A stretch of 64,000 nucleotides of DNA from the IMG/VR virus record IMGVR_UViG_3300032893_000004, positions 91,058 through 155,057 of that record. One strand, written 5' to 3'. Source of the DNA: a virus. Both the position numbers and the translations under genes were made by a program. Under the pieces are notes generated by a model, which did not search any database, was not told the origin of the DNA, and was given only the letters and a program-made list of their open reading frames with translations. Of this stretch, positions 33,793-54,169 are shown piece after piece; the stretch's first letter is position 1; each line of letters begins with the position of its first letter.

Positions 33793-34884
33793 CTACTCGA
33801 ATATACCGTATATCTCGCCGGTCTTCATCAACAAAACTTTCTTTTCGATAACCCTCAGCTTGTTCAGCTGAATCAGCAGCTGACTTCCAACTTCTTTGCG
33901 CTCTACGTGATCTTCCATAGAAGCTGGATCAGCGATCGTCTCCGACATAGGCCGGGAATACTCATCCTTGGCGTCGATAGAAACGACCTGATTAGCAGCA
34001 GCCTCGATCATCTCGATCTCCGAAGAAGTCGTACCCCCGAAGCTTTCAGCAACGAACGACTGCAAGTCCTCGTTCGAGATGTCGACGTTCTTCTGCTTAG
34101 CCTTCCGGGCGCGGTACAGGATGCGCTTATCCTTGGGCGGCAGCTTAACCAAAGTCGACGAAGCATCGTCATACATGTTCAAGCCGATCCTGCCGATCGC
34201 GACCGATCTGAAGACGGTCTTATACGGCGGCACGAAGTTATCGATCGCTTCCAGCAATCCTTTACTGGCATCTTGAACCAGATCCATGTACTGAGCGTGC
34301 GATGGCGGTATCTTGGAGAAGAAGAGGGCCGTCCGATTCAAGGCGAGCGGTAGGTTGTTCTCGCACAGAAGGTGGCGTATCTCGACCATCTTGTCGTGCA
34401 AGAGGGACAGCTTACGCTTGTTCGGACCGCGATATCGCGAGACTTCCTCGTGATCCTTCGACAGCACCCATTGGACGAACAGATAGTTGATGCGAAATCG
34501 ATGGAGACGTTTGGATTCTTTCTCGCCGGTCTTCTTTTTCTCCTGGGCCTCCGCGAAATCATCCAAGATAGGAAATACTTTGTTGGAAAACGTGTCCTGC
34601 CGCTCACGAAAATACGGACGTATCGAAAGCTTGTTTCCTTTGCCACCTTCAGATTTGTCCCCCAGGATGAATTCTATGAACCGCCTGTACGTCTGGAATC
34701 CGTGCTCATTCAGAAGCAAGAGAGTTTTGAACTGCCGTTCTAGTTTGAACAGTTCGTTGAGAAGTGATCTCTGCGACTGTCCGTTCGATTCGTCGTTTTC
34801 TCGCAGAACCAAGTTCATCTCGTGGCGGAACTGATTGTACAGATCTCTTTTAACGGTTGGCTCGGGCGGCTTGGCATCGCTCAT
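33793..34884 (-). CDS. Phage sigma-70-family factor ending inside region 4
   Basis: 363 aa. Region 2 is clear at about residues 165-240: EIRHLLCENNLPLALNRTA, then YMDLVQDASKGLLEAIDNF and FRSVAIGRIGLNM, matching the core-binding and -10-recognition helices. Region 3-like sequence follows (about 245-310). The C-terminus, LLIQLNKLRVIEKKVLLMKT-GEIYGIFE, matches region 4.1 and stops where the -35-binding helix-turn-helix should begin. The stop is genuine (TAG before the next gene's AGGAGG). A separate region-4-like protein lies at 47542-47763. It probably directs RNA polymerase to extended -10 promoters. Confidence 0.65.
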   Translation of the reverse strand: MSDAKPPEPTVKRDLYNQFRHEMNLVLRENDESNGQSQRSLLNELFKLERQFKTLLLLNEHGFQTYRRFIEFILGDKSEGGKGNKLSIRPYFRERQDTFSNKVFPILDDFAEAQEKKKTGEKESKRLHRFRINYLFVQWVLSKDHEEVSRYRGPNKRKLSLLHDKMVEIRHLLCENNLPLALNRTALFFSKIPPSHAQYMDLVQDASKGLLEAIDNFVPPYKTVFRSVAIGRIGLNMYDDASSTLVKLPPKDKRILYRARKAKQKNVDISNEDLQSFVAESFGGTTSSEIEMIEAAANQVVSIDAKDEYSRPMSETIADPASMEDHVERKEVGSQLLIQLNKLRVIEKKVLLMKTGEIYGIFE

Positions 34885-36377
34885 GCGTTGATCTCCTGAA
34901 CATCGCCCATAGTTCGGTATATTTCGCAGCGAGTATCTGCGTGGCGCTCCATAGCCGACGAGCCGACGACTCTGAAGTCAACTACGATCAGATCTTTCTT
35001 CTTGTCGGTTACGCGAGTCCCACGGCCGATTGCTTGCTTAGTGGCAACTTCCGACAAACCGCCTTGCAAATTCACGAGACAACCGGTCGGCTTGGTATCC
35101 ACACCGGTCGAGATGGCCTTCGTTCCGACTAGCAGCTGCGTGTCACCGCGATTGAAGCGATCGACGGCTCCTTCGACATCAGATTCCCAGAACTCTTTCG
35201 GAAGGATATCTCGAACTTTCGTGCCCTTCTTATCCTCGCCGTTCGCGCCGCCGTGACAAAATTCGAACGGAATCGAACCGAGATACGGCCTTATCGCTGC
35301 GAATTGAACGAACTCGTCCAGGAGAATTATCGTTGGCCGCGAGGCTAGGCGGATTGCTTTTTCTGCGAACTCGGCCGCCAATCGGTTGACGTTTGGATTC
35401 AGGTACAACTGCTCTCGCTGCTCGCGGGCGATGTCGCGGTTGTTAGCGAGACCGTGCGACGGGACGTTGAACACCTTGAAGTACGGTCTAGCCAAGAAAC
35501 CTTCCTCGACCAGCTCTTTGAACTCTTTGCGGTAGACGATCGGCCCGATAATTCCTCGCAGCTTCATGTCCTGGCCGTCGTGGCGCATCTGGGTAGCCGA
35601 AACGTGGAATCGGTACGGAACATTCCTCAACAGACCAAGTTCCACCGCGTCGAATGTGTTAGCCGGAGTAGTGTGCGATTCGTCCCACACGAACTGCTGG
35701 CAAGCCGAAAAGAATTCCCACTCCTCCGAACCTTCCTCTACGCGCATCAGCGCCTGGGCGGTACACACCGTAAACAGTTTGCCGATGTCGTGCCGGCCGT
35801 CGCCGTACTTGCCAACGAGCTTGGTGCCAAAAAGCCACGCCATCTCGCGGTACAGCTGATTGGTCACATTCTTCGAAGGGGTGATCACGGTTGTCTGGAC
35901 CGGATTACGCTTGCACACCTCCTCGATGATGCGGGATTTACCGGAACCGGTAGGAAGCTCGATGGCCACCGGTCCTTGATGAGCATTGTTCAAGAGAGCT
36001 TCGGTAGCATCGTTCTGATAGTACCGTATCTCGTGTTCCGGCGGGTGCGCCCAAGGAATCATGTGGCGCGGCGGTTCGCAGTGGAACTCTTTCGGTTGTA
36101 GCTGCCACCCAAATTCTTCTCTAAGCTCAGACCATAGCCCAGAATACGTGTACGGACCAGAAGCATCGTACTTCAAGAGGGTCTTGTGGACGGAAGCCTT
36201 CAATTCGTCCATCCTGGCTTGGAACGCTTCCGGATCATTTCTCTTCCAGTGATATTTTTTAGACAACTCCTTGATCTGATATTGAATCGCAGAATCTGTG
36301 TAAGTAAGGAATTTCCTGACCTTATCCGAGTCTTCGGGGAGCCGAACTGTCGATGGTGTGGTCAAAATCATATCCAT
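34881..36377 (-). CDS. SF2 DNA helicase (UvsW/DEAD-like)
   Basis: 498 aa. Motif I VAIELPTGSGKSRII (about residues 135-149), motif Ia TVITPSKNVTNQLY, motif II WDESH (DExH), motif III FHVSATQM, and C-terminal motifs LLVGTKAISTGVDT and KQAIGRGTRV (motif VI). Length and plan fit phage recombination helicases of the UvsW kind, which remodel forks and R-loops. Its stop overlaps the sigma-factor start by four bases. Confidence 0.8.
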   Translation of the reverse strand: MDMILTTPSTVRLPEDSDKVRKFLTYTDSAIQYQIKELSKKYHWKRNDPEAFQARMDELKASVHKTLLKYDASGPYTYSGLWSELREEFGWQLQPKEFHCEPPRHMIPWAHPPEHEIRYYQNDATEALLNNAHQGPVAIELPTGSGKSRIIEEVCKRNPVQTTVITPSKNVTNQLYREMAWLFGTKLVGKYGDGRHDIGKLFTVCTAQALMRVEEGSEEWEFFSACQQFVWDESHTTPANTFDAVELGLLRNVPYRFHVSATQMRHDGQDMKLRGIIGPIVYRKEFKELVEEGFLARPYFKVFNVPSHGLANNRDIAREQREQLYLNPNVNRLAAEFAEKAIRLASRPTIILLDEFVQFAAIRPYLGSIPFEFCHGGANGEDKKGTKVRDILPKEFWESDVEGAVDRFNRGDTQLLVGTKAISTGVDTKPTGCLVNLQGGLSEVATKQAIGRGTRVTDKKKDLIVVDFRVVGSSAMERHADTRCEIYRTMGDVQEINA

Positions 36378-36382
36378 AACGC

Positions 36383-36388
36383 ATTATA
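36383..36388 (-). promoter_or_regulatory. -10-like GGGTATAAT ahead of the helicase
   Basis: Minus-strand TTGGGTATAATGCG in the 16-base gap between the DnaB-like and SF2 helicase genes, six bases before the ATG. Part of the GGTATAAT-type series; too close to the ATG for a long leader. Confidence 0.3.
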
Positions 36389-36393
36389 CCCAA

Positions 36394-37710
36394 TTACCAG
36401 TTCGTTAGACGAAGCTGGCCGTGAACAAACTCGAAGGTAGCTATCTTCCCAACATTATCTCCGTGTCTAGAAAGGTGACAGTGAACTTCTGTAATCGGAG
36501 CAGCGTCTGTCGGACCGCCGTGACCGCGCCTTATCTCCAGTCCAACATGAACGTGATTTGCGAGCCACATATCGCCTTGTATCCGCTGAGAAAACGGCAT
36601 ATCGCTGTCCGGCGGCTGAGGCTTCAGCTGAGCGAACACTATCAGCGGTATCGATAGATCGATGGCGTAGCTCTTTAACCACAGTCCGAACTCTTTGGCG
36701 ACGCCGACCGGCGCGAGCGCCTTGTTGCGCCGAGAATTTGACACGATCTGGTAGTAGTCGAGCATGATCGCCGAGTACAACCCGCTTTCCTTCGCTTCGA
36801 GAAGAAGATCCTGGACGGTTTCCATGTTGGTCACGTCGTAGTCAGGCACGGACGCGACCGTTACCCGAGTAGCGACCCAGGCCATGGTCTGCTCTACCTC
36901 GGCCAGCTTAACCGGATCGATCTTCTGCGGGAACATGAGGTAGTCGCGGATGGACACCCCGCACGCGGCGCACGCGATCCTGGCAGATACCTTGTGATCG
37001 TCATCCTCGTTCGAGATGATCAAGATCTTCTTGTCAGGCACGTGACGAATAATGGCAGGCGCTAAGTTGGCGACGATAGTAGATTTTCCGGCCTTAGTTA
37101 CCCCGCCTATCAGCGTGATGCCCGGCGTGAGCATGAACGTGCCTTCGATAGCCGGAGTGATGAACGGAACCCGATTCTTGAGCACTTCCCGCCAGCGGGC
37201 GGTCTTCGCTGCGATCGAGTCGACGGCTTCTTGATCCGACTTGACGCCGGTCGTGCGCATGTTTTTAAGATCGGCGATCTCGGCGGACGTTTCCACGATC
37301 TTGTCTATGTCGCCTTTATCGTAGTGCTTGGCAAGCTCAAATGCCTTACCCTTGATCAGCATGAACTTGTGCTGCTCGGCTACGAGTCGCGTGATGTCGC
37401 CCTTAGAAAACATGGCCGACATAGCCTCGGCGTTGTTGGCGTATCCCTTGTAGACCGAGATCGTTTGAGGGTCAGATTGATTCTGCTCGATGATACTCGT
37501 GAGCGCGACGGTTGAAACTGCGCCGTTTCGGCGCTCGTATTCCTTCGACACGTACTCGAAGAGAACTCGGATGATCGGGTGGCGAAAATATTCAGGCTTG
37601 AGGGCAGGTATAGATCTCGCATAAAAAGCTGGATCTCTCATGCAAAGACCGAGGGCAGCTAACTGTTGATCGTCCGTGAGGACAGGATCAGTTTTCTGAA
37701 GTTCTGGCAT
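36394..37710 (-). CDS. Replicative DnaB-like helicase
   Basis: 438 aa. An N-terminal DnaB-type helical domain (TDDQQLAALGLCMRDPAFY, about residues 12-30) precedes a RecA-like ATPase: Walker A GGVTKAGKST (202-211), SNEDDDHK, Walker B SAIMLDYYQIV, and the sensor IPLIVFAQLKP. It is the replicative fork helicase and its start overlaps the initiator gene by 23 bases, so initiator and helicase are made together as in lambda- and P22-like origin modules. Confidence 0.85.
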   Translation of the reverse strand: MPELQKTDPVLTDDQQLAALGLCMRDPAFYARSIPALKPEYFRHPIIRVLFEYVSKEYERRNGAVSTVALTSIIEQNQSDPQTISVYKGYANNAEAMSAMFSKGDITRLVAEQHKFMLIKGKAFELAKHYDKGDIDKIVETSAEIADLKNMRTTGVKSDQEAVDSIAAKTARWREVLKNRVPFITPAIEGTFMLTPGITLIGGVTKAGKSTIVANLAPAIIRHVPDKKILIISNEDDDHKVSARIACAACGVSIRDYLMFPQKIDPVKLAEVEQTMAWVATRVTVASVPDYDVTNMETVQDLLLEAKESGLYSAIMLDYYQIVSNSRRNKALAPVGVAKEFGLWLKSYAIDLSIPLIVFAQLKPQPPDSDMPFSQRIQGDMWLANHVHVGLEIRRGHGGPTDAAPITEVHCHLSRHGDNVGKIATFEFVHGQLRLTNW

Positions 37711-38347
37711 CGCTTTTTTTCTCTAAAAAATTTTTATTTAGTTTTAAGTCTTTAGTATTATATAGAGGCGGTGCATCCGGCGCACCGATGTCGGTGCATG
37801 GCGCGCACCGATCATGGTGCATATATGCACCGGTGCATAATGGAACCGGTGCATCCGGCGCACCGAGAATGGCGTCTATCGGTGCATGATGCGCACCGTC
37901 TTGGACGTCTAACGGTGCGCCACGCGCACCACTTTTTCGAGAATTTGCTTCCAAAATCGACGAATCCCACTGATTCCTCGGATTGATTTCAAACACCCAC
38001 TGATGCTTGTATTCGTATTTTTTTATGATGTTGAAAGCTTCTAGAATAGCAAGTCTGTCGGTCACAGTTCGTTTATTGAGACGAAGAGTCCGAACGATTT
38101 CGTTGCGCGAACCTTTCCAGCCTTCACCGTTCATCGCGATGAACATAAAAATGCACTTGGCGTAGCAGTCGAGATGTTTGAATACGATCAACTCGTTTGC
38201 GATCCGGGTGTAATTACCGGTTTTGTTCAACTCGTTCTCGTATTCTTTTTTCGTTAAACCGGCCGTATAAACTCCTCCCGAGACGACGGAGTGCGGCTCA
38301 CCCTTGCGGAAGCAAGGGCACCGAACATAGATATCATACCATAACAT
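37688..38347 (-). CDS. Winged-helix replication initiator-like protein carrying the origin in its gene
   Basis: 219 aa at most. Residues about 55-110 form a winged helix (WKGSRNEIVRTLRLNKRTVT, then LEAFNIIKKYEYKHQWVF). The C-terminal third is Ala/Pro/Asp-rich (GAPDAP, GARGAP, GAHHAP) because the DNA carries the iterons. The start is unclear: ATG 38347 has no ribosome binding site, while GGGAGGAG at about 38273-38280 points to the in-frame ACG at 38266; TTG 38230 is another choice. The position before a DnaB-like helicase and the gene-internal repeats match lambda O-type initiators. Function is inferred. Confidence 0.6.
   Translation of the reverse strand: MLWYDIYVRCPCFRKGEPHSVVSGGVYTAGLTKKEYENELNKTGNYTRIANELIVFKHLDCYAKCIFMFIAMNGEGWKGSRNEIVRTLRLNKRTVTDRLAILEAFNIIKKYEYKHQWVFEINPRNQWDSSILEANSRKSGARGAPLDVQDGAHHAPIDAILGAPDAPVPLCTGAYMHHDRCAPCTDIGAPDAPPLYNTKDLKLNKNFLEKKSDARTSEN
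37712..37766. other. AT-rich stretch, candidate DNA-unwinding element
   Basis: Runs of T and A (CTCTAAAAAATTTTTATTTA and TTTAGTATTATATAG) at the end of the initiator gene, directly beside the iteron array. Much richer in A and T than any nearby region, as expected for the melting site of an origin. Confidence 0.55.
37770..37930. repeat. Iteron array, candidate replication origin
   Basis: Six dyad units GGTGC-N6/7-GCACC at 37770-37786, 37793-37809, 37816-37831, 37848-37864, 37881-37897 and 37914-37930, plus a half unit at 37832. The first and fourth are identical (GGTGCATCCGGCGCACC). Start spacings are 23, 23, 32, 33 and 33 bases. The array lies inside the coding sequence of the winged-helix protein. 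Confidence 0.75.
38301..38318. other. Hairpin in the initiator leader
   Basis: CCCTTGC-GGAA-GCAAGGG, a perfect 7-bp stem with a 4-base loop, between the minus-strand -10 at 38333 and the likely translation start near 38266. It may regulate initiator translation or mRNA stability. Confidence 0.45.
38333..38341 (-). promoter_or_regulatory. Extended -10 (TGGTATGAT) for the initiator/helicase operon
   Basis: Minus-strand TGGTATGAT, one base off the TGGTATAAT family and 35 bases from the divergent plus-strand copy at 38376. It would start a transcript at about 38325, so the ATG at 38347 would not be transcribed. Confidence 0.5.
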
Positions 38348-52094: not shown

Positions 52095-52841
52095 ATGAAC
52101 GAATTAAAAGACGCTCTGAACGCAATCGCCGATAAGGAAGCTGAATCCAAAGTGAACCCAGGTGACGCCGATCCCCGCACCCGCAACGGTGTTGAGGCTA
52201 TGGTTCGCAACGCCAAGAAAGATCTCGACAAACTCTACAGGAATTACAAGGCGTTGGTTATGAACCACGTCGTCATCATCGGTGTGAAAGGCGAAACTGC
52301 CGAGGAATTTGCTCTGGCAGCTGAAAAACTAGGATCGATCTCGGTGGACTTCAACTTGGTAAAGAATCGATTAGTCGGCTTTCTCAAGAAAGCTGGAGTT
52401 GGGCAGACTTACAGTTCCACCGCTAACTTTCGTCTGATGGCGGAACTTCACAAGATCAAGACTGAGTACGAGATGAAAGAACTTCCGACTCCGAAGATTA
52501 ACGGATACTCGGACGGCATCTACGATTCTCCGTTCGACGTGGCAGTTTCCAAGCTGATCGATAACAACTACGGGTCTAGCCTACAATCGGCCATCACCCG
52601 CCGAGAGATCGAGAGGAAAGCCCTTGAATCCCGGTTCGGCGGCAGCAAATTGCCAGTCGTAGTTTACAACCTTGACAAAGAGATCGATTCGCAATATCTT
52701 AGCCAAGCGACGACGGTTATCGAGTCAAATAGCAAGATCACCGGCGATACGGTAAAGAAGAAACTTTCGGCTATCCGAGCATCGCTGACGTCGAAAGTTA
52801 AACCAGAGGCCGAGCTGCCTCAGACACAGGAGAATCAATGA
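52095..52841 (+). CDS. Hypothetical protein (248 aa)
   Basis: Mostly helical with one alpha/beta segment (NHVVIIGVKGETAEEFALAA, about residues 57-75). CGGAGG precedes the ATG and the gene overlaps the SSB-like gene by four bases. Because it is coupled to SSB-like and UvsX-like genes, a replication or recombination accessory role is likely. No family recognised. Confidence 0.55.
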   Translation: MNELKDALNAIADKEAESKVNPGDADPRTRNGVEAMVRNAKKDLDKLYRNYKALVMNHVVIIGVKGETAEEFALAAEKLGSISVDFNLVKNRLVGFLKKAGVGQTYSSTANFRLMAELHKIKTEYEMKELPTPKINGYSDGIYDSPFDVAVSKLIDNNYGSSLQSAITRREIERKALESRFGGSKLPVVVYNLDKEIDSQYLSQATTVIESNSKITGDTVKKKLSAIRASLTSKVKPEAELPQTQENQ

Positions 52842-54169
52842 GCACGGAACAAGTAGCGATCGGGCGATCAGCTTTCGGACGACAAGGTCGGGCAGGCTTC
52901 TTCGACATCGAGGCTAACAAGGAGAATATCTATCGCGTGCTGCCGCCGATCAAGAGTCTTGCTCAGAAGAGTAAGTACGCCCAGTTCTACGCAACGCATC
53001 GCGGTTTCCGAGGGACCGACGGTAAACAGCGTCCATTCCGCTGCATCGAAGAGATGAACTTCAAGACCAAGGTTATCACTACTCACTGCCCTGTATGCGA
53101 CAAGGTAGCTGAGATGGAAGCACAGCTCAAAGCGTGGGCAGACTCGGGCGCTCCTAAGGATCAGGTCAAGAAGTTCCGCGACGAAAACATCTTCCCGTTC
53201 CAGGCGGAGCGCAAGTATTACCTGAACGTTGTGAATCCGGAAAACCGCATCGGTATCTTGCCGATCGGCTCGAAGATGTTCAAAGCTCTGGATGATCTCT
53301 GCAAGAAGCAAGAAGCGCTTGGCCGTGATATCACCGGACTCGAAGGTGTGTATCTCACTTTCCAGAAGAAATCGGCGTACAAAGGTGATGCTCAAGCTAT
53401 CTTCAACGTGGAAATATACATGCACCGCCAGCAGGACGGTTCGTATCGCGAGGTTGTTCACCACATCGACGCCGCGTTCGCTCAGCGCCTCGGACCGGAA
53501 GCGGCAGATCTCGGAATGCTGTTCAATCGCATCTTGAATGCCGAACAGATCGCCCAGATCGTAGCTCTGGACGGTGCTGCACGTGCGTCTTACATCGATC
53601 AGTTATTCGCGAGCGACGATAAGCCGCAAGCGCAGACGTACACTCCGCCTCAAGGCTACGTTCCGCCGATGGGCGCTGCTAGCGCACCAGCTCCAACGCA
53701 GGTACCTCCGCCAGTGGCTTTTGCGGCTCCTCCGACGACCTTTGCAGCACCGCCAATTGCGACGCCGGCTGTCCCGCCAGCCTTTCAACCTCCAGCAGGA
53801 TTTGGGGCTCCGGCAGCTCCTCCGGTTCAAGCAGCGTCTCCGACACCTCCTACGCTGCCTCCGGCGGGCTTCACGCCGCCAGTTGGTTTTGGGACTGAAC
53901 CAAGCGCTCAGGCTCCCGCATCGCAGGCTCCCGCATCGCAGGCTCCCGCATCGCAGGCTCCCGCATCGCAGGCTCCCGCATCGCAGGCTCCCGCATCGCA
54001 GGCGTCTGCGCCTCCTCCGCCACCGGCATTTGGCGGCAACGTGACCATGTCCTCTCCAGCACCGCTTGCGCCCCCAGCCGGGTTCGGCGCGCCGCCTTCG
54101 GCCTCAGCCAGTCCAATCGCGGATGATCAAGACTTCATCAATATGGTGCGTCCTAAGAAAGAAGGATAA
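52838..54169 (+). CDS. Single-stranded DNA-binding protein (T4 gp32-like) with repeat linker
   Basis: 443 aa. The N-terminal 250 residues resemble gp32-type SSB: NIYRVLPPI, a CxxC pair in HCPVCDK (about 88-94), ERKYYLNVVNPENRIGI and FNVEIYMHRQ. About 265-415 is Pro/Ala-rich with six APASQ repeats from a 15-bp tandem array. The end is acidic then basic (ADDQDFINMVRPKKEG), the usual partner-binding tip. Followed closely by a 188-aa gene and the recombinase. Confidence 0.65.
   Translation: MSTEQVAIGRSAFGRQGRAGFFDIEANKENIYRVLPPIKSLAQKSKYAQFYATHRGFRGTDGKQRPFRCIEEMNFKTKVITTHCPVCDKVAEMEAQLKAWADSGAPKDQVKKFRDENIFPFQAERKYYLNVVNPENRIGILPIGSKMFKALDDLCKKQEALGRDITGLEGVYLTFQKKSAYKGDAQAIFNVEIYMHRQQDGSYREVVHHIDAAFAQRLGPEAADLGMLFNRILNAEQIAQIVALDGAARASYIDQLFASDDKPQAQTYTPPQGYVPPMGAASAPAPTQVPPPVAFAAPPTTFAAPPIATPAVPPAFQPPAGFGAPAAPPVQAASPTPPTLPPAGFTPPVGFGTEPSAQAPASQAPASQAPASQAPASQAPASQAPASQASAPPPPPAFGGNVTMSSPAPLAPPAGFGAPPSASASPIADDQDFINMVRPKKEG
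53909..53998 (+). repeat. 15-bp tandem repeat, six perfect copies
   Basis: CAGGCTCCCGCATCG repeated six times (53909-53998) with a degenerate seventh copy to 54013. In frame, it encodes QAPAS repeats in the SSB linker. Copy number could change by slippage without breaking the frame. Confidence 0.9.

Follow-up and report, generated by a model that had tools for sequence, protein, structure and literature searches.

The window, a stretch of 64,000 nucleotides, covers positions 91058–155057 of an IMG/VR phage record of 155,057 bp. Genes running leftward from ~38.35 kb encode a winged-helix protein, a DnaB-like helicase, a ResIII-type helicase, a sigma-like factor, and SbcD, and genes running rightward from 38.4 kb encode GroEL, SbcC, a RuvC-like protein, a DnaE-type polymerase, a UvsX-like protein, and a primase. 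The winged-helix ORF (37688–38347, minus strand; 219 aa, start codon tentative) encodes a winged-helix domain and, after it, a low-complexity tail specified by iterons, and overlaps the ORF of the DnaB-like replicative helicase (36394–37710, minus strand; PF03796, 2.8e-9; phrog_19, 1e-26), which starts within the AT-rich end of the winged-helix ORF. The two genes are flanked on the left by a ResIII/DEAD-type helicase gene (34881–36377, minus strand) and on the right by a phage groEL (38401–40191, plus strand). Iterons inside the initiator coding sequence and a DnaB-type helicase gene directly downstream are both features of a P22-type module, and the earlier note's placement of the repeats in a winged-helix coding sequence just before a DnaB-like helicase gene is borne out by the profile matches and the overlapping ORFs. 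No second DnaB-like helicase was detected in the part of the window's protein set that was scanned, and an Rfam search of the region returned no match.

The iteron array (37770–37930) lies in the 3' part of the winged-helix ORF and consists of six exact GGTGC-N6/7-GCACC dyads and one degenerate unit. The exact dyads are located at 37770–37786 (GGTGCATCCGGCGCACC), 37793–37809 (GGTGCATGGCGCGCACC, in another reading-frame phase), 37816–37831 (GGTGCATATATGCACC, a perfect palindrome with an N6 spacer), 37848–37864 (GGTGCATCCGGCGCACC again), 37881–37897 (GGTGCATGATGCGCACC), and 37914–37930 (GGTGCGCCACGCGCACC), reproducing the start spacings of 23, 23, 32, 33, and 33 bases reported in the earlier note, while the degenerate seventh unit (GGTGCATAATGGAACC, 37832–37847) divides the 32-base spacing into 16 + 16. 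The six dyads compare with 0.0003 expected when the 300-bp region was dinucleotide-shuffled 3000 times, and when any 5-nt arm was allowed these shuffles gave at most two dyads. Outside of the array there are no dyads in the whole 155,057-bp phage, and a control with the arms read backward gave zero. The units, with the degenerate one counted, occupy three codon phases of the ORF. A dyad in frame 0 translates as GAxxAP, the source of the 'GAPDAP' tail, such that the repeats do force this type of protein sequence as previously proposed, with units present in the other frames as well. Judging from the spacings, no helical phasing of the units is apparent.

Adjoining the array is an AT-rich stretch (37705–37768, 80% AT), a putative DNA unwinding element, which has the highest AT content of any 60 bp in the window and shares first place across the 155-kb genome, confirming that an AT-rich stretch lies beside the iterons. 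Along the direction of transcription the order is iteron array, AT-rich stretch, and helicase start codon, which places the AT-rich stretch on the 3' side of the iterons, as in O-like phage initiators.

The winged-helix DNA-binding domain of the protein spans residues ~46–121 (37985–38212, minus strand) based on an AlphaFold2 model and PDB matches, with helices at residues 61–72, 81–88, and 92–104 and a wing at residues 108–121. The AlphaFold2 model, built on an alignment of 29 sequences from which the row for the protein of Myxococcus phage Mx1 was left out, is a confident winged helix (pLDDT mostly >85 over residues 51–120); a structure prediction without an alignment was of no use (pLDDT 35). 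Fold comparison against the PDB recovered winged-helix proteins, mostly transcription regulators with MarR/ArsR-type proteins at the top, a result that identifies a winged helix but does not tell initiator from regulator. Similarity to known families is modest, and profile searches group the ORF weakly but consistently with replication initiators (phrog_1456, 2.3e-6; phrog_270, 8.3e-5; phrog_428, 8.7e-4). A profile constructed from the N-terminal domains of 52 GGTGC-array initiators of other phages was searched against 6468 ORFs from ten large phages, and the window protein was the top match of its genome (E = 0.007); significant matches were mostly proteins encoded in the same slot before groEL, with the slot proteins of the relatives on top. 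The protein possesses the N-terminal winged helix of O-like initiators (PHROG 270, 391, 1032, 428). It had been described as not an obvious O homologue, a description that applies at the level of the Pfam family Phage_rep_O, for which there is no match at E ≤ 0.1 and to which the protein is consequently not assigned, but not at the level of the profiles, which mark it as an O-like initiator (phrog_270, phrog_428). The C-terminal domain with which lambda O recruits the helicase-loader complex is absent, the ORF ending 27 residues past the array. Scanned singly against IMG/VR, neither the helicase nor the winged-helix protein recovered relatives, and a tblastn search of the helicase against named phages recovered none either.

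The same dyad recurs in other phages. At least 119 further IMG/VR stretches contain tandem GGTGC-N7-GCACC, nearly all within O-like initiator genes, compared to three for the pattern with reversed arms, in a scan that picks exact dyads, includes some near-identical loci, and may have the wrong frame for a few covering ORFs. Among the matches listed, arrays have two to six dyads with a spacing of mainly 22–24, 32–33, or 42 bp and fall mostly within one ORF, and the covering ORFs match the O-like replication initiation families phrog_270 (57 of 80) and phrog_391 (53 of 80), while 35 of 38 covering ORFs that did not enter the profile of GGTGC-array initiators also match that profile. Within this same group of listed matches, 91 of 219 dyads are outside the GAxxAP frame, at least one out-of-frame dyad occurs in 49 of 68 genes, and GAxxAP is encoded by the dyad 127 times and by non-dyad synonymous codons six times. 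The off-frame dyads and the 127:6 bias in codon usage point to selection acting on the dyad DNA, and not on the peptide, across these phages. Of 45 genes among the matches listed, 37 have the AT-rich 40-mer on the 3' side of the array and five on the 5' side (p = 2.6e-6), matching the polarity of the window and of lambda. Exact GGTGC dyads were absent from several named O-protein relatives (MD8, LESphi3, KS9, phiNP), while Flavobacterium phage FCV-1 has one, and a literature search on the GGTGCA iteron motif and phage replication found no paper describing the motif. By itself, the pattern does not identify initiators in bacterial genomes, where it mostly matches dispersed repeats and only one of 77 covering ORFs is an initiator. 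Several species of Amycolatopsis (loci such as L313, L315, L317, and L336) carry tandem GGTGC-N7-GCACC pairs as dispersed chromosomal elements outside of initiator genes.

GroEL-based searches for the same neighborhood yielded seven close loci and 80 in total. In the nearest relative (L010), GroEL is 90% and the ResIII helicase 86% identical, and the DNA is 73–79% identical on both sides of a 1.95-kb unit (36384–38332) that has no DNA alignment to L010 apart from 103 bp in the helicase that match weakly. In place of this cassette L010 has another winged-helix gene, other in-gene iterons, and another DnaB-like helicase, which is only about 31–32% identical to that of the window. The L010 array (L010:7564–7698) is also in-gene, made of seven CATGATTGTTTTGATCATG dyads of 19 nt that occupy two reading-frame phases, and its host is an unrelated winged-helix gene with an additional C-terminal domain. 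Exchange of the whole region between relatives with different iterons is a further property of P22-type modules. The unit is inverted in two other loci (L011 and L012), where it consists of a winged-helix gene, an array, an AT-rich run, and a helicase, with the arrays at 23-bp spacing and located at or just past the 3' end of the winged-helix gene. More distant phages, including Mx1, have a small winged-helix gene and/or other repeat arrays immediately before groEL, and the strongest repeat cluster is within 2 kb upstream of groEL in 19 of the 36 loci with a clear cluster, a set with some near-duplicates and one CRISPR-like case (L035). Two or more GGTGC dyads were found in no other groEL-linked locus.

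The contents of the slot are diverse. L035 (IMGVR_UViG_3300037424_001778, 164,882 bp) has a CRISPR-like array at L035:7329–7892 with eight exact copies of a 36-bp repeat (GCAATATAAGCCTTCACTCCGCAAGGAGTTAGACAC) and unique spacers of 37–44 bp. L032 has large perfect repeats about −530 to −220 before groEL, organized as repeated blocks with GTAAAGTAAACAT pairs, and L051 has long AT-rich repeats, both direct and inverted, at about −700 to −400; the repeats of these two loci differ in kind from iteron arrays. L019 and L020 encode a 508-aa protein without a recognized winged helix and have a cluster of TATTGATAATG repeats in an AT-rich gap. The winged-helix gene before groEL in Mx1 (OR576727.2, 168903–169275) is annotated only as 168903–169187, and its frame stays open to an ATG at ~169275, which then includes the full winged-helix domain.

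Nucleotide skew was examined as circular detrended cumulative GC skew in ten large phages, six of which (G003, G004, G005, G012, G008, and Mx1) have a minimum 0.4–1.6 kb before groEL. A cumulative GC-skew extremum at the array, anticipated for the window phage, did not materialize, with the minimum ~20.7 kb to the right of groEL and the maximum a fraction of 0.49 of the genome away from it. The AT-skew minimum of this phage is at 38,255, and gene orientation accounts for it equally well. An orientation-corrected fit at 4-fold sites singled out the slot in none of the genomes. Skew is weak evidence here, because gene orientation switches at the slot and the corrected fit does not choose it.

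Collectively, the locus is very probably a theta-type replication origin situated inside an initiator gene and carried together with a helicase, i.e., a P22-type (gene 18–gene 12) cassette in an Mx1-like large phage. The proposal of an origin within the initiator gene on the lambda/P22 plan is upheld by the winged-helix profiles, the AT-rich neighbor, the DnaB-like helicase, the replacement of the cassette, and the dyads in O-like genes. A dimer or pair of the winged-helix protein probably binds to the GGTGC-N7-GCACC dyads within the gene encoding it, and an O-some-like complex may then open the adjoining 60-bp AT-rich stretch. The DnaB-like helicase, from the overlapping downstream gene, would be delivered to the opened DNA, and replication would fire at the array.

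It is possible to read the same elements as a regulatory circuit, in which the winged-helix protein regulates transcription of the helicase operon or the divergent groEL operon, with the dyads as operators and the origin elsewhere. The ranking of MarR/ArsR-type regulators first in the fold search would fit, as would the divergence of transcription at the slot in these phages, but the array is ~420 bp from the divergent start region, in the 3' end of the gene and abutting the AT maximum. Moreover, the dyads of other phages occupy O-like initiator genes and not the operators of regulators, and the helicase travels together with the array, leaving this reading unlikely. Autoregulation may be a role of the array besides an origin function.

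That the repeats are a feature of the protein alone, an Ala/Pro/Gly-rich linker grown by slippage in DNA without a function, is scarcely credible when units occur here in each of the three codon phases, out-of-frame units are present in most of the genes listed from other phages, and synonymous encodings of GAxxAP are almost absent. The segment is of low complexity in the protein (GAPDAP), and the same phage does have an unrelated in-frame linker repeat, a perfect 15-bp tandem of 6.3 copies (53909–54003, in ORF 52838–54169) that gives the linker of an SSB-like protein its SQAPA repeats; this true linker repeat, however, contrasts with the array in being a uniform in-frame tandem without dyads. 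A different cis-acting site, such as a centromere-like partition, packaging, or recombination site, is highly improbable. Dyad arrays are known at such sites and the cassette is exchangeable, but it contains no partition gene, the terminase genes are 6–8 kb away, and the dyad array marks initiator genes across the other phage stretches. An origin within the initiator gene remains the preferred reading.

This reading provides a testable origin for a group of 150–170-kb phages for which no described origin was found, and it indicates that the phages of this group exchange their origin module as small lambdoid phages do. Of greater interest are two broader claims, both based on sequence evidence: that phages share a GGTGC iteron and that the origin slot is swappable. 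With slightly less than an even chance in our estimation, GGTGC-N7-GCACC may be the shared origin code of many initiators in unrelated phages, and the Mx1-like slot before groEL may repeatedly receive initiator-origin(-helicase) cassettes from a wider phage pool, possibly as an escape from origin-directed defenses or satellites. One dyad marking initiator genes in many unrelated phages would offer a simple signature for phage origins in metagenomes, initiator–iteron pairs are now available for working out a recognition code, and the cassette slot is a place to seek selection by origin-targeting defense.

Among known systems, the closest named phage is Mx1 (OR576727), with 39% identity in GroEL and 32% in DnaE. 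Gene order around the slot is alike, and the slot of Mx1 holds a winged-helix gene and AT-rich, repeat-bearing DNA; unlike the window, it has neither a DnaB-like helicase nor GGTGC dyads. The paper on the Mx1 genome describes no origin (PMC10720576).

In SPP1, a lytic phage, the replisome organizer G38P binds the origin (oriL) and recruits the phage hexameric helicase, in a system of G38P, G39P, and G40P (PMC5615212). SPP1 has a separate loader (G39P), whereas no loader gene was found between the initiator and the helicase in the window. In PLE satellites, RepA/ori modules, as with the ICP1 nuclease Odn, show that an origin and its binding domain can be swapped together among close relatives, and the PLE iterons hold inverted sub-repeats (PMC8263062; PMC7145576). 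These satellites are documented to swap origin and initiator in the face of an origin-directed nuclease (PMC8263062), an analogy that suggests origin-directed attack as a possible reason for the cassette swaps here. The PLE case differs in having an initiator of the RepA_N family, an intergenic origin, and a satellite in place of a phage, whereas the array of the window is in-gene and in a phage.

Lambda shares with the window in-gene inverted-repeat iterons and an AT-rich neighbor, as the ~19-bp iterons of ori-lambda are located in the coding sequence of O with an AT-rich region adjoining (PMC7466680). The earlier note had considered dyad iterons a difference from lambda, a distinction that has to be dropped given that the 19-bp lambda iterons are themselves inverted repeats (PMC7466680). 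The differences lie instead in the iteron sequence, in the use of a loader (P) for the host DnaB by lambda as opposed to a phage helicase here, and in the membership of lambda O in the Pfam Phage_rep_O family, which the window protein does not match.

The exact precedent is P22 and phage L, in which the gene 18 initiator with in-gene iterons is followed by gene 12, a DnaB-type helicase, and between which the iterons differ, gp12 is 29% identical, and the region has been exchanged as a whole (PMC8022706). The window and L010 are alike in this respect, with different in-gene iterons, divergent helicases, and conserved flanks. Compared to P22 and L, the iteron sequence is different and the initiator is shorter, ending just past the array, and the cassette resides not in a 40-kb lambdoid phage but in one of 155 kb that encodes a DnaE-type polymerase, a UvsX-like recombinase, a primase, SbcCD, and GroEL of its own. 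The plan itself is known from P22, L, and lambda; what is new is the lineage that hosts it, an origin slot whose contents can be swapped, and an iteron of wide distribution among phages.
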